Assembly (NCBI RefSeq): GCF_000620125.1 | Contig: NZ_JHVL01000007.1 | Coordinates: 1-64,000 of the forward strand | Direction: 5' to 3' | Source of the DNA: Clostridiisalibacter paucivorans DSM 22131 | GTDB taxonomy: Bacteria > Bacillota > Clostridia > Tissierellales > Clostridiisalibacteraceae | Length of the DNA: 64,000 nucleotides | In this document: positions 9,738 to 62,626 of the stretch, piece by piece | Position numbering within the stretch: the stretch's first letter is position 1 | Layout: every line of letters begins with the position of its first letter | Translations under genes and position numbers: made by a program | Notes under the pieces: generated by a model | Databases searched by the model: none | Told to the model about the DNA's origin: nothing | Seen by the model: the letters and a program-made list of their open reading frames with translations, nothing else

Positions 9738-10331
9738 CTAATCTCTATTCCCATATACTTTAACTTTATTTGCAATTGGCTCAAATCTTTTATCATAAGC
9801 TTTATCAATATACACATTGGGCTGTTTACAGAAATCATCCCATTTAACCAATACACAATATCTATCTTCTTCACTATGGAAACATTTATTATTTGGTATG
9901 TAATAGTTATAACTAAATTCCTTTATTACTGTGCTATCATTAATTGCCACAATATTATGCTCTTTTCCACAGGAACTACATTCTTGACTGCCCTTATATA
10001 TCGAATCGTACATCGCTGGTAACACTATTCCTAATATTCCACTTCTGGAATTACCTTTACCATTATATAGAGAAGCTTGAAGCTCTCTCATAATATAACG
10101 TTGTTCATACCAACCTAAATTTTCCGATGAGTACTGTCCAATTAAGAATAATGTTACTGTAGAATCTGATAAATAATCACTTCTAATTTTTTGCATAATA
10201 TAATCTTCATCATCTGAATTAATTGGAGTGTTTAAAGATTTATCAATCATATCTACATCTAAATCATTTTGAATGTATTCCTTATAATCAATATCTTCAG
10301 TTTTAAACGATATGAAGCATTTGTGTCCCAT
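9738..10331 (-). CDS. TIR-domain protein (ThsB/MTH538-like)
   Basis: A 197-residue protein with an N-terminal TIR-like domain of the MTH538/DUF1863 type found in ThsB proteins: HKCFISFKTEDIDYKEYI, then DMIDKSLN, DEDYIMQKIR, DYLSDSTVTLFLIG and WYEQRYIMRELQASL. Glu83 in the last segment is a candidate catalytic residue. A CxxC (118-121) in the C-terminal part may bind metal. TIR proteins of this type make nucleotide signals from NAD in bacterial defence. Its ATG directly follows the TAG of the upstream SLATT gene, so both should be translated together. The signal made and its target are inferences. Confidence 0.78.
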   Translation of the reverse strand: MGHKCFISFKTEDIDYKEYIQNDLDVDMIDKSLNTPINSDDEDYIMQKIRSDYLSDSTVTLFLIGQYSSENLGWYEQRYIMRELQASLYNGKGNSRSGILGIVLPAMYDSIYKGSQECSSCGKEHNIVAINDSTVIKEFSYNYYIPNNKCFHSEEDRYCVLVKWDDFCKQPNVYIDKAYDKRFEPIANKVKVYGNRD

Positions 10332-10781
10332 CTAACACCCCTCCTTCTCTCCATCTTTATCTTTCTTCATATGAGTCATAATCCACATGCTATTCTCTCT
10401 AGAAATTAGGGATTCAACCCTCTCAACAAATGTTGACATTCTATCCTCACATCTAGAATAATCATCAAGTCCAGCATCGTAGAAGTATTTCTCTTTCTTT
10501 AGAGTTTCAGATATTGTTCTATAATTAATCCAATTCTCTTGAAATTTAAATGTTTTTAATCCCGAAGTCCCAATTGTTAATAAGACTGAAATACCAACTG
10601 TAATAAGTTCTTTTTCTTCTGGAACAATCAGAATCAGCACTGGAACAATAGCTGACAGAATGACAACTAACCATTGAAATAATTGATATAGTCTCTTATA
10701 ATGGGTAGCTTTATCGCTATACCATTTAATTTGGTCTTGATAACGTACAGCTAAGTATTTATCGAAGTCATCTTTATTCAT
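10332..10781 (-). CDS. SLATT-domain two-helix membrane protein
   Basis: A 149-residue protein with two adjacent transmembrane helices (about 32-53 and 58-76) and a soluble helical tail carrying NWINYRTISETLKKEKYFY. This is the layout of SLATT domains, which are predicted pore-forming effectors in bacterial conflict systems. The ATG at 10781 is chosen because AAAGGAGGTGG lies 8 bases upstream; an earlier in-frame ATG has no such site. The stop TAG is immediately followed by the ATG of the TIR gene. Pairing of a SLATT membrane protein with a nucleotide-signal enzyme was predicted by comparative genomics; membrane disruption on TIR signalling is the working model, not shown here. Confidence 0.75.
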   Translation of the reverse strand: MNKDDFDKYLAVRYQDQIKWYSDKATHYKRLYQLFQWLVVILSAIVPVLILIVPEEKELITVGISVLLTIGTSGLKTFKFQENWINYRTISETLKKEKYFYDAGLDDYSRCEDRMSTFVERVESLISRENSMWIMTHMKKDKDGEKEGC

Positions 10782-11135
10782 TCTGTCGCCACCTCCTTTT
10801 TGTTTAAATGTATGTATAAAATGCATCGAAGCACTTTGATTGCTTAATTAATCAAAATCTATATATTGTATGTCTAGTTATATCTAACACTATATCTTAC
10901 ATAAACCCCTCTCTTGATTGAATGGTACTACATGTAACCATTCTGTAACATTAGCCCTTTTATGCCAACCTCTGAAACCCTTGATTTTACTGGACTAGCA
11001 AGGTATTCATCCTTTCCCCATACTCACCTCGCCTTGATTCTCGAAGGATAAAAAGGAAACCCAATACATAGAAAAATGTCAAGAAAAAAGTTGATTTTAG
11101 CCTCATTTCTCGGTAATATTCAAGTTTTTAACAGC

Positions 11136-11162: not shown

Positions 11163-11380
11163 AAGAATTTTGATCCATACATACGCTCTCAGAGCGTTTT
11201 AAAATTAGTAGAGCAGACCTTTCTTTATCTAAAATAAACTGAGGTCAATATACAAAGTCTCATTATGTAATCTAAAATCACTGAGATGATCAGGACCAAT
11301 TACAAAATACAGGATTGAAAAAATCAATTTTTTTGAGAAAACCTTGCACCAACTATTTTGTTTTCAGAATATTCTGATAC

Positions 11381-11409
11381 TTGACATTGAACGATAACTA
11401 CTATATAAT
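11381..11409 (+). promoter_or_regulatory. Consensus sigma-A promoter
   Basis: TTGACA (11381-11386), a 17-bp spacer and TATAAT (11404-11409) match the housekeeping consensus at all twelve positions. A start site near 11416 falls inside the palindrome at 11407-11426. The only thing downstream before a terminator at 11472-11503 is about 90 bp of non-coding DNA. Confidence 0.8.
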
Positions 11410-11426
11410 TCGAACTAGTTCGAATT
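11407..11426. promoter_or_regulatory. Perfect 20-bp palindrome over promoter -10/+1
   Basis: AATTCGAACTAGTTCGAATT is a perfect palindrome overlapping the -10 box and predicted start of the consensus promoter. It looks like an operator for a dimeric regulator. It is not a LexA box: the GAAC and GTTC halves are 2 bp apart, not 4. The HTH protein encoded 650 bp downstream is one candidate binder. Confidence 0.6.
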
Positions 11427-11503
11427 ACGGCATACGTAAGCAATTGATTCTAAATATATAAAGAAGTTCGTAGCTCTATCCAAAAGTGGATGGAGCTTTT
11501 TTA
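11416..11503 (+). ncRNA. Candidate ~90-nt small RNA
   Basis: The consensus promoter at 11381-11409 and an intrinsic terminator (AGCTCTATCC-AAAAGT-GGATGGAGCT then six T, 11472-11502) bracket about 90 bp with no ATG and no frame of note. Within it TTACG-GCATA-CGTAA (11425-11439) can form a second hairpin. The simplest reading is a short structured RNA controlled at the palindrome. It resembles no RNA family I can name. It might act in the flanking defence modules, or regulate elsewhere. Confidence 0.5.
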
Positions 11504-12001
11504 TTTGCAGCCTTCCCCGTTTAATACATCGAGAGAGCACTTTCTTCATATAATGTAAAAAGCTATCTCATTCCATCATGACAATACATCTCTCTCCTGA
11601 ACGAGTTTCTTCCTATATATATGTAGAATAAATAAGCCGTTGATTTGAAAACAAAAGCTTAAACTGCCCAAAACTGAAAATTTTAGAGCAACTTCTGAAA
11701 AAACGACGCTTCAGTTTGGCCTGTGTCGGCTTTTCATTTAATTTTTGACCGATTGTTCCACAATCGACTAATCAGGCTCAAATTGGCCATAAACGCGATT
11801 TAGCCATTTCACTCTGAAAAAGCAGCAATCTAGCCAATACTTTATCTAAGTTTGGTACATTTTAGAGGTTAGAAGCTTTGCAATCTTTGCCTATGCTGCT
11901 CCATCAAGCATAATTGTTTTATGAAACTGTATATTTCATGATTGAGTTTTTTACATCGTATGTTATTATTTATTTCATATCGGGTACAATATTAATAAAG
12001 A

Positions 12002-12076: not shown

Positions 12077-12439
12077 ATGAAAACTTTATCAACTAAAAAA
12101 TTAGCTGAAACAGTTAGAAACCTTAGAGAATCAAAAGGATTTACAAAAGAAGAACTCGGTAATTTAACCGGTATAAACAGAATTATGATAGGCCGAATTG
12201 AAAGAGAAGACTTTACTCCATCTATTGTACAGTTTGAAGCTTTATCAAATGTTTTAGGTTTTGATCTTACAGAAATGTTTGTTGAGAAAGAAAGAACTAA
12301 CTCTTTTGTTGCTCTTCGAAGTGAAGCATTAAGCGATAGTGAAAAAAAAGGCGTAGAAAAACTATTCACTATGATGTTGTCACTTAGACAGCAAATTAAA
12401 TTAAGGAGCTCATTTGAAAATGAATCCACTCACGCTTAA
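12077..12439 (+). CDS. XRE-type HTH regulator (antitoxin-like)
   Basis: A 120-residue protein with an N-terminal Cro/C1-type helix-turn-helix (VRNLRESKGFTKEELGNLTG, then INRIMIGRIEREDFTPSIVQ) and a charged helical tail. It heads a three-gene operon with an ImmA/IrrE metalloprotease and a PIN-like protein, the usual order when the HTH protein is the repressor/antitoxin cleaved or bound by the protease. The start has AAAGGAGG 9 bases upstream. The frame overlaps the protease gene by about 20 bases. Autoregulation from the promoter at 12002 is likely but inferred. Confidence 0.85.
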   Translation: MKTLSTKKLAETVRNLRESKGFTKEELGNLTGINRIMIGRIEREDFTPSIVQFEALSNVLGFDLTEMFVEKERTNSFVALRSEALSDSEKKGVEKLFTMMLSLRQQIKLRSSFENESTHA

Positions 12440-13301
12440 TGAAGTCCAAGTAGATGAAATTCGCAAATTAGCTGGAGATGAGCGCCGATTTCTAGGCTTT
12501 GTAGGCGAAACACCTATTGCCAACGACATCTTTACAATTCTTGATAGACTAGACATCATGTTGCTGGAATATCCCATCGAACCTGAAGGTGATAGACCAG
12601 CTTTTTCTGCTGCTATTATGTATTCTGAAGAAGACGATAAAAAACTTACTTTCATCGGGCTAAATACTGCAGATTTTTATGATAAGCAAATCTTTGCTAT
12701 TGCTCATGAGCTATATCACTATTACACAAAATCCGGCTCACATCTAAGCAGACCGGAAGATGAAGACAATAGCCTTATTGAAGTAAAAGCTAACCGTTTT
12801 GCAGCAGAGTTTTTGTTGCCTGAAACAGTACTAGAAAGTATTGTTCTTGAGGAGTTTAAGACATCTTCTCTTGAGAAAATTCAACATAAAGCACTGTTGA
12901 GATTTATCGCTAGACTCCACTGTACATGGTGGCTCCCATATCGTTCACTTGTCAGAAGACTGCACGAGATAGGTGCAATTTCATCAGAGCAGTATACAGA
13001 ATTATACTCTGTTGATGAAAGAGATCTACAGGGTGAGTACGGTAAAATAGGTCAGGCTACTAATAAGGAAGTATTTCTTAAACTAAATCAACCAACTAAA
13101 AATATTGGTACTTCCCCTAATGAAATCGAGATCATCATTAGAAACTTTGAAGACAATCTCATAGATGAAGATAAATTTGCAGAAACCCTAAGCCTTTTCA
13201 ATAGAACACCTGATGAATTTGGTTATGAGATAAAAGTCTCTCAAGAAGACATAGATGAGCTTGATGCTTTCTTCAGTGGGGAGGATGATGATGAAGATTA
13301 A
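12414..13301 (+). CDS. ImmA/IrrE-family zinc metallopeptidase
   Basis: A 295-residue protein with the COG2856 peptidase domain. The zinc-binding HELYH motif lies near residue 98 (IFAIAHELYHYY) and the third ligand is probably the Glu in LIEVKANRFAAEFLLP about 28 residues on. ImmA and IrrE cleave or inactivate HTH repressors, and the gene directly follows such a repressor. The ~100-residue C-terminal part is extra and unrecognised. The TTG at 12414 has AAGGAG 5 bases upstream; the ATG at 12420 is the alternative. It overlaps the following PIN-like gene by about 11 bases. Confidence 0.87.
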   Translation: MKMNPLTLNEVQVDEIRKLAGDERRFLGFVGETPIANDIFTILDRLDIMLLEYPIEPEGDRPAFSAAIMYSEEDDKKLTFIGLNTADFYDKQIFAIAHELYHYYTKSGSHLSRPEDEDNSLIEVKANRFAAEFLLPETVLESIVLEEFKTSSLEKIQHKALLRFIARLHCTWWLPYRSLVRRLHEIGAISSEQYTELYSVDERDLQGEYGKIGQATNKEVFLKLNQPTKNIGTSPNEIEIIIRNFEDNLIDEDKFAETLSLFNRTPDEFGYEIKVSQEDIDELDAFFSGEDDDED

Positions 13302-13992
13302 TCTTACCCATCCTAATCCAGCATTAATAAGTATTATTGAGGATCCAGAACAGATCATCACTTTAGATGCAAATTTTCTTATTGCTCCGGATAGAAGGCC
13401 AATCACTAAAAGAGGCATCGGTTTTGAACAGTTTAGAGAGATCTGGTTAGACCCCATTTTCAGTGTCTTTCCAAATCTAGCTATTCACGAATCTGTGTAT
13501 GATGAACTGGTTGGAATCTCTCCGCAAAATTATGTAGATGCGAAAAGGGATAGCATTCCACCTGAGATCATTATTCACAAAGATTCTTCTCTAACTGAAG
13601 TTGAAAAAATCTTAAGAGATACCATTGAATCAAAGATTGCTTCTCTCACTAAATACGATCCGATGCTTGATAACAAGGATGATCGTGGAAAAGTGAAATC
13701 ATTATCTTATATTGCTGTCAAAGGTCTGCTCTACTTCGCAGCAAATGATAATAACGCTATTCAACTCATTGAAAAATCAGAAGAGTGGTCTACTGGCTTA
13801 GATAATGTACAAGCCATCAAAATGTATGAGCTCATATACTATCTATACAGAAATGATCTGGCTGATAAAACAGCCATGAAAATGCTTTACAAATATCAGT
13901 ACTATCTGACTGATCGGGAGAAAAGTACAAACCCTGGATGGGGAGATTTTTCCTCTAGCATGGACAGTTTATATGAATCCTATTTCAAATAA
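13291..13992 (+). CDS. PIN-like nuclease domain protein, third gene of ImmA/IrrE operon
   Basis: A 233-residue protein. Acidic residues are placed as in PIN ribonucleases: Asp26 in ITLDANFLI, Glu67 in AIHESVYDEL, Asp131 in DRGKVKSLSYIAVKG and Asp153 in FAANDNNAIQL. PIN domains cut RNA and are common toxins. Here the antitoxin role would fall to the HTH and protease proteins. The protein is longer than simple VapC toxins (~130), and the C-terminal ~75 residues are unassigned. The ATG at 13291 is chosen for its 6-base spacing from GGGGAGG. A strong bidirectional terminator follows. The PIN assignment rests on motif spacing only. Confidence 0.6.
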   Translation: MKINLTHPNPALISIIEDPEQIITLDANFLIAPDRRPITKRGIGFEQFREIWLDPIFSVFPNLAIHESVYDELVGISPQNYVDAKRDSIPPEIIIHKDSSLTEVEKILRDTIESKIASLTKYDPMLDNKDDRGKVKSLSYIAVKGLLYFAANDNNAIQLIEKSEEWSTGLDNVQAIKMYELIYYLYRNDLADKTAMKMLYKYQYYLTDREKSTNPGWGDFSSSMDSLYESYFK

Positions 13993-13996
13993 AAAT

Positions 13997-14046
13997 AACC
14001 CACCAAGTGGTAGATAACTGTTATCTGCCAACTCAGTGGGTTTTTC
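13997..14046. terminator. Bidirectional intrinsic terminator between convergent operons
   Basis: An outer stem AACCCAC/GTGGGTT encloses an inner GGTAGATAA/TTATCTGCC hairpin. Five T follow on the plus strand, and TTATTTTTATTT follows on the minus strand. It would end both the HTH-ImmA-PIN operon and the subtilase gene. Confidence 0.8.
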
Positions 14047-14142
14047 TATTGCTGATAAAACCCCAGGCCTATAGGTAACTGGGGAATTATCATCTTTGTT
14101 CAGTTTTGTGAAGTACAAAACGGATGTTTATTATCCGGATTC

Positions 14143-16680
14143 TCAATAAGTAATTTCAGTAGTGACTGTGGTTCTGTTTTCAACATTGATTTCTGTTTCA
14201 ATCTTATTCTTAATTACATTATACAAATCAATTTCAACTTCTGGAGCTTCAATACTCACAACTAATGAATACCTGATTTTTGAATTGAACTTTTTTAAAT
14301 TCGTTCTAGATTTCCACCACCCTGTTATCGGATACACAGCTATTTTGTTGCTCTGGCTTAAGTCACTCGCTGTTCCCTCCCATATGTCAGAATGAATGGA
14401 ACCAACGTTTCTATTTGATGTACCAATCACCCAGCGATTGCTATCATTTTTTACATCGCCTCTATCTTCTTCATCATCTCTGATAGCTTTGTTTATTCTT
14501 TTCAAGAAATTCTCGTTATCTTCTGTGGAATTATTCACATCAAATTGAAGTCCACAAGAAGGATATCTATATTTATCTTTCCATCCAATTTCTCCAGGTC
14601 CAGGCTCAACAAAATATGACAATGTTACTCGCATTCTTACGGTTTCATCCTCCAAGCCTAATAATACATCATCCGGCCAAGGAATTTTATGAATGTGCAT
14701 TTCTTTTGATGTGGGGTTACCGCTCCCCTTTTTTTGAAAAGGTTGGATTTCATCTTCAATTATCAGATTAACTCTATTTGATGCACTCCAGATTGCTTTT
14801 GAGAGGTTCGGTACGCCATAGCCACAAATTCTCATTAAGTTTCTATAATCAGATCTTTTAGGAACCGAGTTTTCAAATGTAGCTTTTTTCATAGCGTCAG
14901 TCCATTCTGCCGAATGAATGATTAGTGCTCTTACAGTTTCTGGCCACAGCTCTGGATACTGGTGTTGAATATTTGCACCTATCCATGCCGCCTGTGCTGT
15001 TGCGGAACTTGTCATGCTAATTACATCAAATGACTTCCCCGTTTGAAAATCTTTACTGGTAGTTAAAAGTTGTAAATCTGGTAGATCAGAATAAAAATCA
15101 GTAGCTTCATCATAAACTAAATTCCCACCTTCTAAAACAATATCAGGTTTAATTGGCCACTTTTCGCGCCACATGATCGAACTTGATGTAAACGGGGAAA
15201 AGTTACCAGGTTCAACAACTGGTTGATAATTATCGGAATATTCTTCAGGTATCTGATACTTTTCTGTATAAGCTCCTACCGTTATAGCGTTCCAGGATTG
15301 TCCGGGATCCTCAATTGTATGATTTCTAACAGCCGTTAGAACATCTCCCGATTCTTTAATTTCAGACATGTGAGTATTTCCAGCAGAAACAAACATAAGC
15401 TTCCTCCCTACATCAGATGAACCGATATCATTCGCACCAGAGATAACTGAATCAATTGCACCTGACCAAGAAGATGGTCTACCATCATTTTCAATTGCAT
15501 TTGACTTTGCAGTGACAGCCATACAAATCGATCTATTTGTTTCCGGATTTTGGATTTGAGCTAGATTAATAGCATTCTCAGTCACATAACCGTATAAGTC
15601 TTTTTCGTTGTCGTCTTCTTTATCAAATAACTTGACAGATTCTAAGAAGTGATTAATTATAACGGGATCGGAACTTTCAAGTTTATCCTCAAGGGTATAG
15701 TATGCAGCAATTCCAGCCATCATTGTTCCATGTTTATTTCTGTCATAAACACCTTTATCCAAATCAACAGAATGCATATCTTCATCCGATAATAATGGAG
15801 CCAATAAACCATGACCATTATTTACCCCTGTATCAAGAATACATACTGATGTATTAGAACGGGCTGAAATATCTAGACGCTCTGCTAAATCTTTTACAAA
15901 ATCTCTTTGCTCCCATTCTGATAAGTCTTCAAAAAAACCTGCCGGGGTTACTATTATTCTAAACTCTGCTATCCGTGAGCTTAGCCACTGCAACTCAGAC
16001 AACTGCTGTTTATTCGCTTTTACCGCTAAAACTAAACGCTCAGGAAAAATGATTCTCTGATTTTTGTATTCAATACTTTTTTCTTCGCAAATCTTAAAGA
16101 ACTCCGCCTGGATTTCTTCAATGTCTTCTTTTGTTTCATACATTAGCCAGACTTCACACCACTGCGGAACAGTCGTTGGCATCTTGCTTTTGTCACTCAT
16201 CCAAAGTGCATCTACATAAGCAAGATTAATACTCTCTATTGTCCCGATGACTTTTTCAGCATTTTCTGTTTCTTTGTATTTATTGATTTTCTTAATAAAA
16301 AAATCCCTTTTATTTTCAGGGACGTAGACAGTTGAACTTACAATTTTCTTATTTTCACTATCTTCTTCCGTCTTAATATTGCATATTCTAACGTGTTGCC
16401 CTACGTGCTCTAAACTTTTTGTTATTAGGTCATATCCTGCTTGACCCTTAATTTCTAAATAAACTCCATGCCTTGAAGAAACTGAAACAACACCAACATC
16501 TTCTTGACTTTCTTCTGCTAGATCCCAAGCCCTTCTCAAATCATTCTCAAGTCGCTCTGCATGGCTTAGTCTGCTAATGCGAGGCGGACTGTTTTCTGTT
16601 CCACCTCCACCATTAGCAGGTATATAATCGAAGCTTTCTCCGGTTTTATTTACATATAAGTTGCTTAATCCTGATTCCAT
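14143..16680 (-). CDS. ietS: S8 subtilisin-like protease (IetS-like)
   Basis: An 845-residue protein with a central S8 domain. The triad is visible as Asp283 (CILDTGVNNGHG), His317 (RNKHGTMMAG) and Ser558 (SMTSSATAQAA, in place of the usual GTSxA), with the oxyanion Asn435 in VSAGN. About 240 N-terminal and 230 C-terminal residues lie outside it; there is no signal peptide, so it acts inside the cell. It follows a AAA ATPase gene by 7 bp, the arrangement of the IetAS anti-phage pair described in defence-island screens. The symbol is by analogy. The target of the protease is unknown. Confidence 0.75.
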   Translation of the reverse strand: MESGLSNLYVNKTGESFDYIPANGGGGTENSPPRISRLSHAERLENDLRRAWDLAEESQEDVGVVSVSSRHGVYLEIKGQAGYDLITKSLEHVGQHVRICNIKTEEDSENKKIVSSTVYVPENKRDFFIKKINKYKETENAEKVIGTIESINLAYVDALWMSDKSKMPTTVPQWCEVWLMYETKEDIEEIQAEFFKICEEKSIEYKNQRIIFPERLVLAVKANKQQLSELQWLSSRIAEFRIIVTPAGFFEDLSEWEQRDFVKDLAERLDISARSNTSVCILDTGVNNGHGLLAPLLSDEDMHSVDLDKGVYDRNKHGTMMAGIAAYYTLEDKLESSDPVIINHFLESVKLFDKEDDNEKDLYGYVTENAINLAQIQNPETNRSICMAVTAKSNAIENDGRPSSWSGAIDSVISGANDIGSSDVGRKLMFVSAGNTHMSEIKESGDVLTAVRNHTIEDPGQSWNAITVGAYTEKYQIPEEYSDNYQPVVEPGNFSPFTSSSIMWREKWPIKPDIVLEGGNLVYDEATDFYSDLPDLQLLTTSKDFQTGKSFDVISMTSSATAQAAWIGANIQHQYPELWPETVRALIIHSAEWTDAMKKATFENSVPKRSDYRNLMRICGYGVPNLSKAIWSASNRVNLIIEDEIQPFQKKGSGNPTSKEMHIHKIPWPDDVLLGLEDETVRMRVTLSYFVEPGPGEIGWKDKYRYPSCGLQFDVNNSTEDNENFLKRINKAIRDDEEDRGDVKNDSNRWVIGTSNRNVGSIHSDIWEGTASDLSQSNKIAVYPITGWWKSRTNLKKFNSKIRYSLVVSIEAPEVEIDLYNVIKNKIETEINVENRTTVTTEITY

Positions 16681-16687
16681 TTATCTC

Positions 16688-17650
16688 TTAAGCCTCCTTA
16701 TATTTATAGTAATTCTTCCTATCTTTTATGAAGTTCATTAGGATCTCTTTAGTAATAATGGTGTCTTCCAAAATTGAGTATTTGACAGCATCTTCGCAGG
16801 CTTTCACAATATCTGCGTGATTCAACCCTAAAGCCTTTTTATATACATCTTCCGAGAAAATATCATTGGATGCTTTCCCATGAAGCTTCATTTTAAATAA
16901 TCTTGTAATTTGTTCTGCATCAGGATTTTTGTATTCCATAACATCATCAAATCTTCTGAATAAAGCTTTATCTAAAATATTTGGGTTATTCGTTGCAGCA
17001 ATAATAATACTATATGATTCATCATCTTCCAGATTCTGTAGAAACGAATTCAGTATTCTTCTCATTTCCCCAACGTCATTATCTAAGCTTCTATCCGATC
17101 CAATTGCATCAAATTCGTCAAATAAGTACACTCCACGAATCTCTTTAATATGGTCAAATACTTGCCTTAGCTTTGCACTTGTTTCCCCCATATATTTAGT
17201 AATCAATCTATCAAACTGAATAATATAAAGAGGTAAATATAGTTCATTAGCTATTACTGAAGCCGTCATTGTTTTACCGGTTCCAGGATCTCCAGCAAGT
17301 AAAACTTTTGATCGATTCATAAGACCGTTCTTTCTCAGAATGTCTTTCTTATGATATTCGTTGATCACACGCTTTATTTTATCCTCGATTTCAGACGACA
17401 CAATTAAATCCGAGAGCGTTACGTTAATCATTCGTTGCTCTAAAATATCCAAGCGATTATTTAGCTTAACAACTTTGCTTTTACTAAGATATTTAGGATT
17501 TTGAATAATATCTTTGATTTCTCTGGCACTGGCTGTATGCCCAACCTTTGCCTCGTGAGCCGCAATTTGCAAAACAACTGTCTTAAATTTCTCATCATTA
17601 CTATCAAAATGCGCTCTTATCAAAGCTTTTACTTGTTCAATTGTTGCCAT
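16688..17650 (-). CDS. ietA: AAA+ ATPase partner of subtilase (IetA-like)
   Basis: A 320-residue AAA+ ATPase. It has Walker A LLAGDPGTGKT (about 117-127), Walker B YLFDEFDAIGSDR (about 175-187), sensor-1 IIAATNNPNILD and the arginine-finger region ALFRRFDDVMEY, much like FtsH/spastin-class ATPases. The N-terminal ~80 residues are helical and may bind substrate or the protease. It sits 7 bp upstream of the S8 protease gene, forming the ATPase-protease pair typical of IetAS. ATP-driven substrate delivery or infection sensing is inferred. The start is preceded by the weak site GTGGGTG. Confidence 0.77.
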   Translation of the reverse strand: MATIEQVKALIRAHFDSNDEKFKTVVLQIAAHEAKVGHTASAREIKDIIQNPKYLSKSKVVKLNNRLDILEQRMINVTLSDLIVSSEIEDKIKRVINEYHKKDILRKNGLMNRSKVLLAGDPGTGKTMTASVIANELYLPLYIIQFDRLITKYMGETSAKLRQVFDHIKEIRGVYLFDEFDAIGSDRSLDNDVGEMRRILNSFLQNLEDDESYSIIIAATNNPNILDKALFRRFDDVMEYKNPDAEQITRLFKMKLHGKASNDIFSEDVYKKALGLNHADIVKACEDAVKYSILEDTIITKEILMNFIKDRKNYYKYKEA

Positions 17651-17693
17651 GCGGATTCACCCACTTTCTTGATGTGTTTAATATATAAAACTA

Positions 17694-17720
17694 GAAGGCA
17701 CATACATCAATTGTGCCTTC
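17694..17720. repeat. 9-bp inverted repeat upstream of ietA-like gene
   Basis: GAAGGCACA-N9-TGTGCCTTC is a perfect inverted repeat 44-70 bp before the ATPase start. On the minus strand it is followed by TAGTTTTATAT, so it could be a weak terminator for the recombinases upstream or an operator/leader hairpin for the ATPase-protease pair. Confidence 0.6.
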
Positions 17721-17918
17721 ATAAGTAGTATTCATCTACTCTAACCGTGCTTTGATATATTGATTATTTCAACTTTCACATATCTATGATGTACATAGGT
17801 TCTCTTTTATATTTTACCATTCAATGTCAATAATCACAAGGGGAACAGAAATGACGTTTGCCATTCAATAGGCCTTCACTTTTCTTGCAATAGCACAATC
17901 CTCCTTAACATTAAGTAT

Positions 17919-19001
17919 TCAATCATTATCATTCCACACATACCAACCTTTTGTAGTTTCTCTTGATGGATCTAATATCAACTTCCCTGATTTTTGAAGG
18001 GGTTCATGGATTCTCTTTCTATAAGAATTATCACTCTTAATGCCCAAATGACATCGGATATGCTTCGGCATTTTAGCCTCTTTACAGAACTCTTTCACCT
18101 TTTGAACTTCATCAGAAATTAAAAGCTCCTCCATTTGGATTTTCTTCTTTTGTTTTTCAAACCGCTCTTTGTACTTCTCATAGTCTAACCCCGAACCAAA
18201 CTCTACACCCTCTGCAAATTTAAACTTGATCTCCCCTGCTTTATCAATGGTTGCGCTCAACACATGCTCAATAAAAACTTCTTCAGGGAAGTGGTCTTCT
18301 CCTTCTAAGTCCATGTATGAAACATCTCTTGCGCTGTTGGTCTTGGAATATACACTATCTCCCGGTTTGATTCGTGGCCTCATATTGTGAAAGGTTTTTA
18401 AAGAGACAGGTTTCATCTTTTCGCAGTATTTCAGAAGTTTCTCCAACCGTTCTTTATCCTCCTCTAACTGTTCTAATCGCTCAATGTACTTGTAGTGCTG
18501 CTCCCTCAATTGAATGATATCGTCCGTTATCTGGTTGATCAGTTGTGTGTTTTTACCGTTCTTTTGAATCTCTGTATCAACCGCCTTATAAAGCTCTTGA
18601 TTTAATGCTTCCATTTGCTTTTCAAGGTGCTCTTTATGCTGCAGTTCATTTTCCGTTAAATCCAATTTTCTCAAATGCGCTTTTATCTGATGCCTGAAGC
18701 CTTCGCTGGTTTTGATTTTCCTTAGTGTATCTACAAAGCAGTAATCCATATACCTTTCGTCAAATGATATGGACACATTACATGTCGATCCTAGTTTTTG
18801 AAAAGAGTTAAAACATCGCCATGCACTTCCTTCTCTGGAATAATAGGTGGTGCTTCTGTATCTTGCTACTACATGGCCACATTCAGCACAAGTGAACTTC
18901 TTATAATACATTTCTCTACCTGCTGTCCCGTCTTTCCTCTCATTCTTAACAGGGTTCCTTTTCCTATCTTCGAAAACCTTTTGTGCATTTTCAAATGTCT
19001 C
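17919..19001 (-). pseudogene. C-terminal part of serine recombinase, cut off by in-frame TGA
   Basis: This frame continues the recombinase ORF that stops at TGA 19002-19004, without any frame change. The residues after the TGA (ETFENAQKVFEDRKRNPV) are the normal continuation of the recombinase domain. The zinc ribbon (FTCAECGHVVARY, then WRCFNSFQKLGSTC) and a long coiled coil follow. The first ATG after the stop is at 18911, which would give a 330-residue fragment without the catalytic part. Either the fourth recombinase is inactivated by a nonsense mutation, or read-through or a separate C-terminal peptide is made; the first is simplest. Confidence 0.75.
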
Positions 19002-21767
19002 TCAATCAATGATGGCCTGATGATGTTCCTCAATATAATACTTTGGAACCTGGCCATTATTGGCTTTTCGTACGCTCCCGGCAACCTTCGTGTAGTATTT
19101 TTGAAATTCATAATCACCGAGATACTTTTCATTTCTCAATATTTCTCGGATCGTATTGTAACTCCAATAGTCACTGCCCTTTGGACTCTTTATCCCCAGC
19201 TCATTTAGATGTTCAACAATCTCAAAAATATTTTTACCTTCTATGAATAATTGATACATCAATCGAACCGCTTCTGCCTCTTCCTCAACAATGTGCCACT
19301 CCCTGTTCTTATCAATGGTGTATCCATACATATCTGTCCTTCTACTGATGGTTCCTCTTTGAGCAAGACTTTGCACACCCCAGGTGATGCTATTGGATAA
19401 GGAAACAATCTCTTCTTCTGCGACGGTCGCCATTAGCGATAATATTAATGAAGAGTTTGGATCATTGCTCTTCAAGTTTTCTTTTTCAAAGTAGCATACA
19501 CAAGCAGGTTCTAACTCATGGAGCGTCTTTAATGTTCCCAAAACATCAACCACATTCCTACTGAATCGAGAGATGGATTTTGTAATGATCATATCGATCT
19601 TACCTTTTTTCGCGTCTTCAATCATCCGATTAAAATCATCCCTGCGCTCGGTTATAGTTCCTGATACCCCTTCATCTGCATAGATTCCAGCAAGCTCCCA
19701 TAAAGGATTCGAAAGTATTTTGTAGTTATAGTATGCAAGCTGGGTTTGCAGAGAGAGCTTTTGCTCATCCATCTCTGTTGATACTCTGCAGTACGCTGCA
19801 ACCCTCAGTTTCTTCTTTTCTTCCTGCTTGAGCTGGCTCATCCTGTTCTTAAGAATATTCTTCTTTAAATCACCTATGTCTTTAATACTTAATCCACGCT
19901 CAAGGACAACCACGTCGCGCATAGGTATATTCTTGTTGTTTATTTTAGCCAGACTCTTTGAGTCTGCTGTTATCGCTGTTGCTTCCACTAAGAGTTCCTC
20001 CTTTCTCCAGGCTTTAGAATTTTCATTATCTTTTAAAGAATCTTCTGCAGCTTCAAAGTTAATAAGATCATTTAATAAAGGTTTCTCTTGTTTCTTTAGT
20101 CGGCTTTCCCTTTCTAATCGTTTGTTTTCTGCAGCTTCTACTACACCAGGAATTTCTTCTTGCCCAATCGTCGTTGTTTTTTCATCAATCCACTCGATAA
20201 CATAAGCTGACCCTGAATAGATTGTCAGTTTTGTCATCCACGCTCTAACCATTTCAATGGTTGCAGCATTAATAAAATGGTCTATGCCCCTTATGGTCTT
20301 TAACCAAACAAGAGCATCATTTCGATACTCTCTATCATCTTCAATACGTCCAACCTTGTCTTCAAAAGAGGAATATTCATCTTCTAGCCGTTTAATCAGC
20401 TCTATCTGATTCTGCCTTTTGGCAATTTCGATGTCAGTAAAATACTTTAGGCGCTGAAATTCAAAATGGTCATTCTGGTTGACCCTGATGAGGATTCTCT
20501 CAAGATCCCTAAGCATCAGACGAAAATCTTCTTTTAAAGTCTTCTCACTTCTGCCAAGGGGATCTACCATTTCATATGTGATGTTTTTTCTGTTCTTAGT
20601 TGCAATAATGGTTAACCCCATCATGCGTTTGAACAAGCCTCTTAACCCCATAGCAACAAGGTCATAAGTTTTTATAAGTTCTAAATCACAAAGCTTCACG
20701 CTGGCATTGGTATAGGCACATCCATATCTATAGTCATTTTTTCTTCGCACCAATTTTCCGCATCGACCACAAAATACTCTATATTTCAGCGGGTTACTTA
20801 TTGGCGTTCTGATTTGCTTTTTAGTTCTCTTGTTTTTCTCAACCCTCGCCTGAGCTCTATTAAATACATCCATGGATATTATCGCCGGATGACTATTTTC
20901 AATTAAATATTGCTCCTTATATGGACCGCTGCCAGTAATCTTTCCTGTAAAAAGGTCCTTGGTTTGTGCCTTTGCCCTTTTGTTTCCTGTATAGGCTATC
21001 GCATTAATGATTTTTCTAATTTGTGTATGGGCCCACCGATCATTTCCCTTTTTTGTTTTAATTCCTCGATGTATAAGTTCTCTAGTGATATCAGCATAAG
21101 TGGCGCCACCAATAAACTGATTAAAAATCCACCTAACTACTTCTGCTTCCTCTTCATTAATCTTCACCATGTCTTTGCCACCTGGCTCAACTAAATCATA
21201 GCCGTACATCTCATGAAAGTAAGGTCGTCCTTCATTCAGGCGTTTCTGATAAGAAAACTTCACAAGGTTTGAAACCCCTTCGATGAAATCTTGGGCCATG
21301 GCTGCATGAGTCTCTAAGACCAGTGAACTCAGACCCTTAGAAACCTCCACGCCTTCACGTTCAAAATATACAGTTGTGCCACTTTCTTTTAACTGTTGAA
21401 GCACTTCTAAGATTTCCTTTGTGTTTCTTGAAAATCTGGATATGCTTTTTGTAAGAATTAGATCGATCTTTCCTTCCCTGGCATGACGAAGCATTCGCTT
21501 GAATCCATTTCGGTGTTCGATGGTTCCACCGGATATTTGATTATCGATATACACTCCGACAAATTTCCAATTTGGTTTATTGTAGATGTAGTTGCTGTAA
21601 TAGCTCACTTGATTTTCAAGGGATCTGTAATTGGTGTTCCCCTTACTGATTCTGCAGTAAGCTGCAACTCTGATACCTTCTTTCTTGCTGTTTAGTGGAC
21701 TTTGATGCATCTCGTCCAGCGGATCCCACAGTGTGTGTACCCACATGGCCTTATCTCTTTGGTCCAT
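19002..21767 (-). CDS. Fusion of two large serine recombinases (third and fourth modules), second one truncated
   Basis: One open frame of 921 residues holds two recombinases. The first has catalytic Ser41 (VAAYCRISKGN), the SISRFSRN arginine motif, the recombinase domain, a zinc ribbon (FCGRCGKLV, then YGCAY) and a coiled coil. The second starts near residue 655 with Ser663 (VAAYCRVSTEMDE) and its own SISRFSRN, and stops at IIEEHHQAIID-type residues by TGA 19002. AAAGGAGG (19997-20004) with a GTG at 19988, inside the frame, could start the second module separately. Normal members are 500-600 residues. The set is the integration/excision machinery of the prophage. The first start follows GGAAAGGAG. 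Confidence 0.8.
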   Translation of the reverse strand: MDQRDKAMWVHTLWDPLDEMHQSPLNSKKEGIRVAAYCRISKGNTNYRSLENQVSYYSNYIYNKPNWKFVGVYIDNQISGGTIEHRNGFKRMLRHAREGKIDLILTKSISRFSRNTKEILEVLQQLKESGTTVYFEREGVEVSKGLSSLVLETHAAMAQDFIEGVSNLVKFSYQKRLNEGRPYFHEMYGYDLVEPGGKDMVKINEEEAEVVRWIFNQFIGGATYADITRELIHRGIKTKKGNDRWAHTQIRKIINAIAYTGNKRAKAQTKDLFTGKITGSGPYKEQYLIENSHPAIISMDVFNRAQARVEKNKRTKKQIRTPISNPLKYRVFCGRCGKLVRRKNDYRYGCAYTNASVKLCDLELIKTYDLVAMGLRGLFKRMMGLTIIATKNRKNITYEMVDPLGRSEKTLKEDFRLMLRDLERILIRVNQNDHFEFQRLKYFTDIEIAKRQNQIELIKRLEDEYSSFEDKVGRIEDDREYRNDALVWLKTIRGIDHFINAATIEMVRAWMTKLTIYSGSAYVIEWIDEKTTTIGQEEIPGVVEAAENKRLERESRLKKQEKPLLNDLINFEAAEDSLKDNENSKAWRKEELLVEATAITADSKSLAKINNKNIPMRDVVVLERGLSIKDIGDLKKNILKNRMSQLKQEEKKKLRVAAYCRVSTEMDEQKLSLQTQLAYYNYKILSNPLWELAGIYADEGVSGTITERRDDFNRMIEDAKKGKIDMIITKSISRFSRNVVDVLGTLKTLHELEPACVCYFEKENLKSNDPNSSLILSLMATVAEEEIVSLSNSITWGVQSLAQRGTISRRTDMYGYTIDKNREWHIVEEEAEAVRLMYQLFIEGKNIFEIVEHLNELGIKSPKGSDYWSYNTIREILRNEKYLGDYEFQKYYTKVAGSVRKANNGQVPKYYIEEHHQAIID

Positions 21768-21915: not shown

Positions 21916-23613
21916 CTAAAGAGTATCTAAACCCAGCGGTTCCACCGGGTCCTTTCCTCTCCTCCAGCCGAGGGCCTTTCGCTTGACCCCACATTTAAAG
22001 ATAAACTCCATTTGGTAATCATCATAGATAAGACCCCGTTCAACAGTCTCTCTAAACATTTTTGCATCGAAGGTTTCGAAGTCTTGCAGCCCCTGTAGAT
22101 ACTCAATAAGAATATCCAGGTTCTTCTTCATGAAGATACTTTCTTCTTTATTCTTCAGGAGGTTTTCATGTTCTTGTTGGTAAATTTGAGACTCGTAAAT
22201 GAGATTTCTAAGGGTGGCGTCATAAATTGGGTCATTGGTGATACTCTCTCTCATAGACATTTCAGTAATTTGATCGCTGATTCGGTCAATGATTTCTTCG
22301 ACTTCTTCTAATCGTGCATTTTCTTCTTCAGATAGGCTGACCTCTCTTATGGCCGCTTCACCTTCCATTCGAATCTGGTCGATTTCTTTTGTCATTTTCA
22401 GAAGCATCTCATTGTAAGCTCTTTCAATGACTTCTTCCCATATATACTTTGTATGGCATTCATAATCCGCTTCCATTTTCATCGCTGATACCCTGCACTG
22501 CCATACCGTGAATTTATAGGATTGGCCATTTTTCTTTGAGGTAAGGCGTCTTCTGTGCACCGGAACCCCGCACTCCCCACAAAATAGCATGTTAGAAAAA
22601 GGAGCTGTGTTGCTGTAGCATCTTCGGTACTTCCCATCTGGATCATGGCGCATTCTACTTCTGCGTTCCAGCTCCTTCTGAGCCGCATTCCAATCTTCCT
22701 CTGAAATAATCGGTGGGTGATTGTTTCGTATGAAATACTGTGGTTTGTGGTTTTTATTTCTCACCCGCTTATGGGTTAAAGGGTCTAGAGTAACTGACTT
22801 CTGGCACAGTGCATGACCACAGAATTTTTCATTTTTTATCAGCTTGAGAACCGAATCGCTGGTCCATTTGGTGTTTCCCCTAGCGGTTTTTACTTTATCC
22901 TTGGTTAGCCCCTTGGCAATAAGTGGTGTTCCTTTCCCGCTTAGAAACTCTCGATATATTCTTCTTACAATCTTGGCTTCTTCTTCATTAATGATTAGAT
23001 TGCCTTCCTCATCCTCATCGTAGCCGAGAAAATAGGTTGTCGGTATGTGTGGTATTCCTCTTGAAAATCTCTTCTGAACACCCCAGCTTACATTGGCGCT
23101 TATGGTTCTACTTTCTTCCTCCATAACGCTTGCGATGACAACCAGAATCGTTTCTGATTGGGAATCCAATGTGTTAATTCCCTCTTTATCGAATATAATT
23201 CCCACAGGTTTGTCTAGGTTTTTAAGCATCCTCACATAAGTCAGACAGTCTAAAGTATTTCGTGCAAATCGGCTTATGGATTTGGTGATGATGTAGTCAA
23301 ATTTCCCTTCTTTAGCATCCTTAATCATCTGGTTAAAGCCGGTTCGGTACTTTGTATTTGTTCCTGTTACACCCTCGTCACTGTACACTTTATAAAGTTC
23401 CCAGTCCGGTTTTCTTTCAATGTATTCTTCAAAATAGGAAACCTGAAGCTGATAACTTGACTGTTGCTCTTCTTCAAGAGTTGACACCCTTGCATAGGCT
23501 GCAACTTTAACCTTTGGTTCTTCTTCTCCTTCCCCTCTTCTTTGCATGTTCATATTCGCAGGGATTACCCGAACTCGAGGATTCATCGCTGAAGAGTTTC
23601 TATTTTGCGTCAT
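21916..23613 (-). CDS. Large serine recombinase (second module)
   Basis: A 565-residue site-specific recombinase. The N-terminal resolvase domain has the nucleophile Ser44 (VAAYARVSTLEEEQ) and SISRFARN; then the recombinase domain (NNHPPIISEEDW), a zinc ribbon (LFCGECGVPVHRR, later WQCRVS) and a C-terminal coiled coil. Start chosen at the ATG at 23613, which follows GAGGGGGG; this makes a 14-base overlap with the preceding recombinase gene, so the two are coupled. Phage-type large serine integrases join attP and attB without host factors; why several are needed here is unknown. Confidence 0.88.
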   Translation of the reverse strand: MTQNRNSSAMNPRVRVIPANMNMQRRGEGEEEPKVKVAAYARVSTLEEEQQSSYQLQVSYFEEYIERKPDWELYKVYSDEGVTGTNTKYRTGFNQMIKDAKEGKFDYIITKSISRFARNTLDCLTYVRMLKNLDKPVGIIFDKEGINTLDSQSETILVVIASVMEEESRTISANVSWGVQKRFSRGIPHIPTTYFLGYDEDEEGNLIINEEEAKIVRRIYREFLSGKGTPLIAKGLTKDKVKTARGNTKWTSDSVLKLIKNEKFCGHALCQKSVTLDPLTHKRVRNKNHKPQYFIRNNHPPIISEEDWNAAQKELERRSRMRHDPDGKYRRCYSNTAPFSNMLFCGECGVPVHRRRLTSKKNGQSYKFTVWQCRVSAMKMEADYECHTKYIWEEVIERAYNEMLLKMTKEIDQIRMEGEAAIREVSLSEEENARLEEVEEIIDRISDQITEMSMRESITNDPIYDATLRNLIYESQIYQQEHENLLKNKEESIFMKKNLDILIEYLQGLQDFETFDAKMFRETVERGLIYDDYQMEFIFKCGVKRKALGWRRGKDPVEPLGLDTL

Positions 23614-25219
23614 AGTACATCCCCCCTCTAAATTGACCGACAACGGTTTCTTCTCCATCAATCCACTTAATGGTAAATAAAAAAGGTGACTCCACTGTAA
23701 TGTGAATCACCCACGCTCTTATAAAAGAGATATCTAGTATTTTATAAATGGCTTTATCTGAACCCTTGAGGGTTTTAAGCTTATTTAAGGATGCTTCTCT
23801 AAAGACATGGTCTTTGTCAAAAGCCTCCCATAACTTTGTTTTTTCAGCGATTGTTTCTTCTACTTCTTTTCTTTTAGCCTTGATGTCTTCTACATCTAGA
23901 TTTTTTAAGATAGCATTGTTTTCAGCAATCAGGCACTTTTCAAGCTCCACCCTCAACAAATTCTGCTCTCTTTCTCTTACTGTTTCTGCACTTGATAACT
24001 CTTTTATAAGCTGTTTAATCAGCAAGCCATCATTTGTTCTCTGATCCATGCCATAACGTTTTTCAAAACCTTCTATAAGAAGCTCTTCTATCTTAGTCTC
24101 CTCAATAGGTTGAGCCTTGCATAAAAGTCCGCTCTTTGCATTTGACGAACATCGCCATCTGGTTATTTTCCCCTTCTGACCGAAGCGATGATAGTTCTTT
24201 CCACAGCTGGCACAGACAATTCTGCTGGTAATAGCGGAGCGTTTGTATCTTCCTTTATTTGATTGGGTGGTTTTGTTCTCATTCATAATCTCCTGGACCT
24301 TTTGAAAATCTTCTTTTGACACAATCCCTTCATGATGGTCCTCAACATAATACTGAGGCTTATGTCCCCTATTAACTACTGTCTTATGAGATCTAAAATC
24401 TAAAGTACATGTTTTTCTACTAAGAGCATCTCCACAATATCTTTCGTTTGTTAGGAAGCTACTGATATTAGAGGCAGTCCAATCAATCTCTCCGGAGCGC
24501 TTCTTGTATCCTCTACGAATGAAATGCTGAGCAATATCTGTCAGATTATAGCCAGAAAGAAACATTGCATAGGCTTCTCTTACTATGGCCGCTTCTTTTT
24601 CAACAATCTCCCACTCCTTGTTTTTCTTCGTCTTATAACCAAAGAGTTGAGCCGCAACCACCTCACCTCTTTCAAACCGTTTTCTCAAAGCCCATTCAAT
24701 ATTTTCTGAAGTACTCCGGCTCTCTTCTTCTGCAAATGTGGCCAAAATCTTTATTAGTAGTGAACTGGTTATGTCTTTGGTGTTCAGTCTCTCTTTTTCG
24801 AAGATGACCTGGACGCCCTTTTCAGTAAGCTGTCTCACAATATCCAGCGTATCCACAACATTACGGGCAAATCTAGAAATAGACTTACAAATGATGATAT
24901 CAATTTCTCCATTCATCGCCTTTCTAATCATCCGATTAAAGCCTGTTCGCTTGGACATATCCGTTCCTGACTTACCTTTATCTGAATAGACTCCTGCATA
25001 AAGCCACTCAGGTTTTGATCTAATGTAATTGGTGTAATGAATGATTTGGTTTTCAAGGGATCCTAGCTGAAGTTCTTCTTCAGAACTTACTCTGCAGTAT
25101 GATGCCACTCTAGGTTTATGTGGTTTTACATGTCCCATGCTTGTGTGTAAATCAACATTATTTATCACGGAAACGCTAGGTTGCTGAACCGGTACTACCT
25201 GAACTCTTGCTCGATTCAT
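23600..25219 (-). CDS. Large serine recombinase (first module)
   Basis: A 539-residue recombinase with nucleophile Ser45 (VASYCRVSSEEE), the SISRFARN motif, the recombinase domain (DHHEGIVSKEDF), a zinc ribbon (IVCASCGKNYHRF, then WRCSSNAKSGLLC) and coiled coil. It is the first gene of the recombinase operon, placed after the lysis-gene terminator and preceded by a copy of the 33-bp promoter-like element at 25348-25380, so it probably has its own promoter. Such tandem serine recombinase sets sit at one end of clostridial prophages and transposons, close to the attachment site. Confidence 0.9.
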   Translation of the reverse strand: MNRARVQVVPVQQPSVSVINNVDLHTSMGHVKPHKPRVASYCRVSSEEELQLGSLENQIIHYTNYIRSKPEWLYAGVYSDKGKSGTDMSKRTGFNRMIRKAMNGEIDIIICKSISRFARNVVDTLDIVRQLTEKGVQVIFEKERLNTKDITSSLLIKILATFAEEESRSTSENIEWALRKRFERGEVVAAQLFGYKTKKNKEWEIVEKEAAIVREAYAMFLSGYNLTDIAQHFIRRGYKKRSGEIDWTASNISSFLTNERYCGDALSRKTCTLDFRSHKTVVNRGHKPQYYVEDHHEGIVSKEDFQKVQEIMNENKTTQSNKGRYKRSAITSRIVCASCGKNYHRFGQKGKITRWRCSSNAKSGLLCKAQPIEETKIEELLIEGFEKRYGMDQRTNDGLLIKQLIKELSSAETVREREQNLLRVELEKCLIAENNAILKNLDVEDIKAKRKEVEETIAEKTKLWEAFDKDHVFREASLNKLKTLKGSDKAIYKILDISFIRAWVIHITVESPFLFTIKWIDGEETVVGQFRGGMYYDAK

Positions 25220-61635: not shown

Positions 61636-61892
61636 TATAATATTCCTACCTTTTATCCAACAATGCTGACAAACCCTTTAAAAATACAGGTTTGCTAAAG
61701 AATATTTTTTTGTTCTTTCATCCCATCATCATGCTTCAAATATACGTTTGTTGCGTATTTGGGATTTATTATTAAAAAAATATTCTAATAACTTAGATTA
61801 AGATAATTATACAGATTTGATAACGCCCTGTCAATCCCATTTCCGCAACTTTCATTATTTTATTGCATTTTTCGTTGCGTTGGTTTATACTA

Positions 61893-61936: not shown

Positions 61937-62626
61937 ATGCCCAACAAATCACTAACTGACCAGGAAATTCAAGAATTACGGAAGCGGCTTCGTGCCAGAA
62001 GGCTATTTCTTGATTTAACATATCAAGAATTAGCAGAAAAAACTGGCATGAGCAAATCTACTCTTCAACGTTATGAAACGGGGGGTATTAAAAACCTACC
62101 ATATAGCAAAATACCGATACTTGCTGAAGCCTTAGGGGTTTCTACAGGCTACTTTACGGATTTGGACCAAGATTATACATCACCAAATATCCTTAAGACA
62201 AACAGCTTCAATGTTGCAGACAGAACTGAGTTAATCGAAAGAGCTAGAAAATTTGAAGATGAAGCAATCGCTCGTATTACCCCAGCATTAATCCAAAATG
62301 GCTATACAGTTGAAAAGCAACCTCATGGATCACTGGGTGATATCGTAGCAATTAAAGGAAAAGAAGCTTGGCATATTGATTTTAAGTTTACAAGCGACTT
62401 AGAGAAGCACCCTATAGGTACAGGTCGAACATACCAAGAGTTTCTTTTTCGGCTAGGTAGATTGGCTGTATATCAAGGCAAAGTCACTAAATACTCTATC
62501 TTAACCAATATGCGAGTGATAGGCCAACAAATGATTGAAAGGTACAATCCGCGGCACATAGATATTGAACTAAGTGTACTTTACCTTACTCGTGACGGTT
62601 ACGAAGAACTCTACTTCCAAAAATAA
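61937..62626 (+). CDS. Phage repressor-like HTH protein fused to PD-(D/E)XK-like domain
   Basis: A 229-residue protein. Residues 10-75 are an XRE HTH (LDLTYQELAEKTGMSKSTLQ). Residues ~100-220 are not a LexA-type peptidase but look like a restriction-endonuclease fold: Glu109 on a helix, then GDIVAIKG and WHIDFKFTS with Asp135 and Asp148-x-Lys150, and later RLGRLAVYQGKVTKYSILTN. The divergent position marks it as the prophage repressor. A nuclease-fold C-terminus might sense DNA ends or nucleic acid. Start after AGAGGTGG. Confidence 0.7.
   Translation: MPNKSLTDQEIQELRKRLRARRLFLDLTYQELAEKTGMSKSTLQRYETGGIKNLPYSKIPILAEALGVSTGYFTDLDQDYTSPNILKTNSFNVADRTELIERARKFEDEAIARITPALIQNGYTVEKQPHGSLGDIVAIKGKEAWHIDFKFTSDLEKHPIGTGRTYQEFLFRLGRLAVYQGKVTKYSILTNMRVIGQQMIERYNPRHIDIELSVLYLTRDGYEELYFQK

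Follow-up and report, generated by a model that had tools for sequence, protein, structure and literature searches.

The window, by which we mean the whole 64-kb stretch of Clostridiisalibacter paucivorans DNA analyzed here, carries a compact 147-bp unit at positions 11361 to 11507, in which a promoter, a palindrome, a short stretch devoid of coding potential, and a terminator follow closely on one another. The sigma-A promoter, TTGACA-17-TATAAT on the plus strand (11381 to 11409), matches the consensus at 12 of 12 positions, as a preliminary description of this DNA had stated. Two 12/12 promoters occur in the 64-kb window, against 0.13 expected; the second, at 61834 on the minus strand, lies opposite a phage repressor gene (61937, plus strand) and is probably the early lytic promoter. 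Spanning -10 to about +11 of the first promoter is a perfect palindrome, TAATTCGAACTAGTTCGAATTA (11406 to 11427), with 10-bp arms TAATTCGAAC and GTTCGAATTA, which is a candidate operator. The preliminary description was right that it is perfect and lies over the -10/+1 region, and its length of 20 bp is corrected here to 22 bp. No other perfect palindrome of at least 18 bp exists in the 64-kb window, and shuffled sequence yields 0.1 palindromes of at least 20 bp. The unit closes with an intrinsic terminator on the plus strand (11472 to 11502), AGCTCTATCC AAAAG TGGATGGAGCT followed by TTTTT, whose stem (11472 to 11497) has 11 pairs including one G.U pair rather than the 10 bp first reported and is followed by a T-tract.

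Transcription from this promoter would yield a noncoding RNA of about 87 nt (11417 to 11503, plus strand), its start being placed from the -10 hexamer. The earlier statement that about 90 bp are enclosed without a start codon holds up: there is no ATG ahead of the terminator, and a TTG at 11444 opens only five codons and, as read from the alignment, is not kept as an open reading frame across copies of the unit. Could the TTG, which does follow the promoter, nevertheless mark a very short peptide gene, or the transcript be the leader of the downstream gene? We find both ideas scarcely credible, as the five codons have no Shine-Dalgarno sequence, the frame is lost in the two copies designated L054a and L054b, and the terminator intervenes before the next gene, which begins 570 bp further on under a promoter of its own and varies from copy to copy.

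The predicted RNA folds better than shuffled sequences (z of -3.4), with the terminator as the main contributor. The small hairpin of the preliminary description is present in the sequence (UUACG-GCAUA-CGUAA, 5 bp, 11425 to 11439, plus strand) and is tentative as a structure, since one of its five pairs is C.U in two of the seven known copies and covariation is absent. Indeed, base-pair covariation was found nowhere across the seven aligned copies, and any structure past the terminator is therefore predicted but unproven by the alignment. Upstream of the terminator lies a nearly invariant core, AAAGAAG[U/C]UCGUA, predicted to be mostly unpaired, in the AUAUAAAGAAGUUCGUAGC region (11453 to 11471, plus strand), which the alignments of copies point to as a candidate interaction site. 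A reading of GUUCGAAUU as a mimic of the tRNA T-loop was dropped because it has no surrounding stem.

Six further copies of the unit were recovered, on one metagenome-assembled genome (MAG) contig (L005) and four IMG/VR contigs (L045, L046, L047, and L054). L005 was found via relatives of the helix-turn-helix (HTH) protein encoded at 12077; L045, L046, and L047 by a 22-base pattern search of IMG/VR; and L054a and L054b, which occupy two settings on a single contig, via a recombinase search together with a gapped palindrome pattern. In all seven copies, the -35 and -10 hexamers are unchanged and stand 17 bp apart, the 10-bp arms of the palindrome are intact, and the terminator is present; what varies is the -35/-10 spacer sequence, the center of the palindrome, and the loop of the terminator. 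In the two most diverged copies, L054a and L054b, homology to the window starts at 11361 and stops at 11507 and 11506, respectively, with adjacent flanks that cannot be aligned. The conserved thing is therefore exactly the transcription unit. In L005, L045, and L046, the RNA and terminator are 97 to 100% identical, versus 82 to 92% for the downstream spacer. The preliminary description had staked its proposal of a self-contained, probably regulated small-RNA gene on conservation of the promoter-palindrome-terminator arrangement in relatives, and its retention in seven of seven copies supports that proposal. Because five of the seven copies are >95% alike, they represent few lineages.

A covariance model applied to 248 other genomes of the same order found no further copies. 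In the search of genomes and records bearing the recombinase or the HTH cassette, only L005 and L054 were positive, and among the genomes with the HTH cassette, the model matched only that of L005. A search of the whole window against Rfam gave no family for the unit above the gathering threshold, and a relaxed threshold gave only chance-level matches. BLASTN found no match in plasmids and only short chance matches, covering 13 to 20% of the query, in phages. We also set aside as chance the short matches in G034 and G037, which do not have the architecture in common, and the palindrome matches in G158 and G399, where the promoter-RNA-terminator unit is absent and one match lies near a tRNA. 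Thirteen more viral matches to a loose pattern fell in coding-like DNA and had no covariance model score.

A conserved module end on the plus strand (11030 to 11068), GCC followed by TTGATTCTCGAAGGATAAAAAGGAAACCCA, lies near the unit. The latter sequence begins at about 11038 and is common to the copies; the same end occurs in L005, L045, L046, L047, L053, and twice in L054, each time with different flanks. By our own reading of open reading frames, the DNA outside this end differs: L045 has a serine recombinase gene there, L046 has a gene with a SEC-C motif, and a sugar-nucleotide gene lies next to L054a. The unit sits about 320 bp inside the end in the window and about 90 to 320 bp inside it across loci. 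Inward from the end follow the unit, cargo genes, the three tandem serine recombinase genes of the RNA-bearing module (19.0 to 25.2 kb; 19002 to 21767, 21916 to 23661, and 23600 to 25219, minus strand; conserved with L050, L051, L052, and L054), and genes for holin, amidase, and tail. Past the tail genes lie the major head protein, portal, terminase, and replication genes and the repressor at 61937. Because recombinases and then phage genes lie inside the end, and because L050 and L051 are collinear with the window over the stretch that runs from this end into the genes for tail and lysis, the location is the accessory zone at the recombinase-side end of a prophage. What had been described as a defense island is thus the accessory end of a prophage/serine-recombinase module. 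In L054, a recombinase module of this kind adjoins another module bearing its own unit. Some related module ends (L028, L053, and the second end of L047) are without the unit, which is therefore dispensable.

Might the conserved object instead be a DNA-level element, whose promoter/palindrome and terminator serve module transfer, replication, or insulation and whose RNA is a by-product? In favor of this, the palindrome is the most constant part, and the unit is close to the recombination end of the module. However, the unpaired RNA core and the terminator stem have changed about as little as the promoter, in which the -35/-10 spacer bases vary, and related module ends do without the unit. We consider this explanation unlikely.

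Two observations concern the modules themselves. Serine-recombinase modules insert into the serine recombinase genes of other elements (L045 at ∼3150, L053 at ∼20450, and L054 at ∼3023), at a point near a catalytic-domain motif (A..AEEES), which produces nested or tandem arrays and truncated recombinases. In addition, many modules have in common a short palindromic sequence, resembling a bidirectional terminator, at the point where cargo meets recombinase genes (window 13981 to 14045; L047 2434 to 2498 and 10753 to 10896; L054 844 to 902, 4287 to 4349, and 13936 to 14045).

The cargo next to the unit consists of plus-strand genes for the HTH protein (12077 to 12439), an ImmA/IrrE-like protein (PDC-M69B; 12423 to 13301), and PDC-M69C (13255 to 13992). 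This HTH-ImmA-M69C cassette accompanies five copies; an AbiD gene is present in L047 and beside L054b. Because cargo varies so freely, the unit is an accessory locus of the element class and not of one cargo. Further inward, the defense pair IetS (subtilase) and IetA (AAA ATPase) occupies 14143 to 17650; it is absent in the otherwise collinear L046 and L051, where homology jumps from 14114 to 17977, and represents cargo inserted between the recombinases and M69C. Just outside the prophage end, a ThsB-like TIR gene and a SLATT/DUF4231 gene encoding a protein with two transmembrane segments (9738 to 10826) are possibly a two-gene TIR-effector defense system.

The preliminary description had raised an RNA antitoxin as one possible function, which in a type III-like arrangement would restrain AbiD/AbiF (Abi_2) or the HTH-ImmA-M69C cassette. 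AbiD genes lie beside or near two of the seven copies (L047 and L054b), and the RNA that abiF systems employ is about 100 nt long and has a promoter and terminator to itself (PMC12373285). Against this, an Abi_2 gene is absent from the host genome (99% complete), and a search with the abiF RNA motif (RF03085) was negative both for the unit region at E ≤ 10 and for L047, L054, and L057 at E ≤ 1. Nor is the RNA an AbiD leader, being convergent with the gene in L054b and some 700 to 800 bp upstream of it in L047. In the genomes from which L006-L019, L023, and L026 come, the HTH cassette is present and the unit is missing. By reading, the unit contains no tandem repeats, and no cotranscribed toxin follows it, the next gene being the variable, separately promoted one 570 bp away. 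With no constant toxin partner, an antitoxin function is very unlikely. The closest known system of this kind in our comparison is RCd22, the abiF RNA (RF03085) of Clostridioides difficile phi027, whose partner is AbiF (PMC12373285). Like the unit, it is a prophage RNA of about 100 nt with a SigA promoter and an intrinsic terminator, and AbiD/F genes are found in two elements related to that of the unit. Unlike RCd22, the unit has no abiF motifs, no constant Abi_2 gene, and no readthrough toxin gene directly downstream.

How might the unit be regulated? Because the palindrome covers -10 to about +11, a bound protein should block polymerase. The palindrome arms are constant in all seven copies, and the center is 2 or 3 bp, which counts against a rigid dimer, as this should not tolerate both, and argues for a flexible binder or for half-site reading. 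The HTH protein at 12077 had been put forward as the regulator, a candidate that we rejected. In most of 23 loci, the HTH gene promoters carry a different conserved sequence, AGTATCAT...ATACT-like, and TTCGAA is found in 0 of 23 HTH upstream regions. The distributions of gene and unit are also mismatched: L047 keeps the unit with no HTH gene in its neighborhood, and the HTH gene is present but the unit absent in the genomes to which L006-L019, L023, and L026 belong.

The LexA box of Bacillota is CGAAC-N4-GTTCG. SOS control of the unit by LexA was rejected, as the half-sites lie 2 or 3 bp apart and not N4, and the exact sequence CGAACN4GTTCG occurs nowhere in the host genome. The palindrome core, CGAACN0-8GTTCG, has a single occurrence in the entire 3.25-Mb host genome, which disfavors a host regulon with this operator as well as standard LexA boxes. 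A sensor of restriction or methylation was discarded because the prophage shows no avoidance of TTCGAA (19 sites versus 16 expected). Just upstream of -35, a CodY-like box, TGTTTTCAGAATATT (11359 to 11373, plus strand), has 3 mismatches to AATTTTCWGAAAATT. A box with 2 or 3 mismatches is present in all seven copies, the best match being shifted in L046 and L047; across the 64-kb window, eight CodY-like sites have 3 mismatches, and no site has fewer. The host genome encodes CodY, and nutrient control through this box is a possible lead only.

What would the RNA act upon? In antisense immunity, for which the P4 CI RNA is a precedent, it would base-pair with early or late phage transcripts, whether from its own phage or from related ones, and so block superinfection or lytic growth. 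The prophage location and strong promoter are consistent with such a role, and prophage noncoding RNAs that play it are known, among them the phage-encoded STnc6030 of BTP1 (PMC7067206). However, complementarity of at least 12 nt exists nowhere in the 64-kb window, and the best pairing at the window's 93 gene starts reaches -21.3 kcal/mol, short of the -24.4 that shuffled RNAs give as their mean best. Because pairing at these gene starts is no better than that of shuffled RNA, a phage target is unsupported; we judge antisense immunity to be an outside chance, and a target in the host or in a rival element is more likely.

It is highly improbable that the unit encodes an RNA anti-CRISPR (Racr), which would imitate a single CRISPR repeat and so sequester the Cas proteins of the host. 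Racrs are solitary prophage RNAs driven by a promoter (PMC10651486), which the unit resembles in being such an RNA, and the host has Cas1 and a CRISPR array. SRUFinder asks that half of a CRISPR repeat be matched at an identity of 90% or more (PMC10651486); the best match to the host repeat GTTATTACTTTACCTATGAGGAATTGAAAC, from the single array found, is 8 of 9 bases, with a score of 13 versus a shuffled mean of 12.3. Unlike a Racr, the unit shows no CRISPR-repeat similarity to the one host array examined. RCd22/abiF RNAs and Racrs are the nearest systems in their surroundings, and their defining features differ from those of the unit.

Stand-alone regulatory small RNAs (sRNAs) of the moron type, such as IsrJ and the Salmonella BTP1 noncoding RNAs, are known from prophages (PMC7067206). 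Like them, the unit encodes a short RNA in a prophage accessory zone that is dispensable for some relatives. It has its own promoter and terminator, is independent of neighboring operons, and lies within a prophage yet is missing from some close relatives. Unlike them, it belongs to a Clostridia host and has a strongly conserved palindrome over its start site, and we detected no sequence relation. By the available tests, the unit appears to work like these accessory small RNAs of prophages (PMC7067206) and to belong among them, forming a new family that has no Rfam entry.

Taken together, these data support well the existence of a functional transcription unit, whose conservation as a whole in related viruses makes it very probable that a small regulatory RNA is genuinely encoded here; its expression, repression, action in trans, and target we infer. 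Our favored explanation, to which we assign a probability of roughly 0.6, is that the unit at 11361 to 11507 is a stand-alone prophage accessory (moron) sRNA gene, with candidate action in trans and a putative regulator at the palindrome. Its carriers would be a family of Clostridia prophages and serine-recombinase modules, with the moron locus at their recombinase-side end. Host sigma-A RNA polymerase would start within the palindrome and stop at the intrinsic terminator, producing the RNA of about 87 nt. A dedicated repressor, probably encoded by the element, would occupy the palindrome and block open-complex formation, and CodY may add nutrient control at the upstream box. In the lysogen, the RNA would act in trans, with the unpaired and nearly invariant core most likely pairing with transcripts of the host or of competing elements. 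Of the roles named in the preliminary description, that of a decoy or of a regulator, here one acting in trans, is possible. More speculatively, and only tentatively, the unit may represent a new RNA family, a 147-bp cassette that travels with tandem serine-recombinase modules, in which the RNA would be a general factor silencing rival elements or host defense and an element-specific regulator would read two TTCGAA half-sites at variable spacing.

Computation thus points to an undescribed prophage small RNA, absent from Rfam and conserved as an exact transcription unit. The palindrome, whose core is unique in the 3.25-Mb genome, would provide a clean bait for the regulator. If the RNA is expressed, the unit would offer a clean test of the benefit that RNA-only accessory genes bring to Clostridia lysogens.
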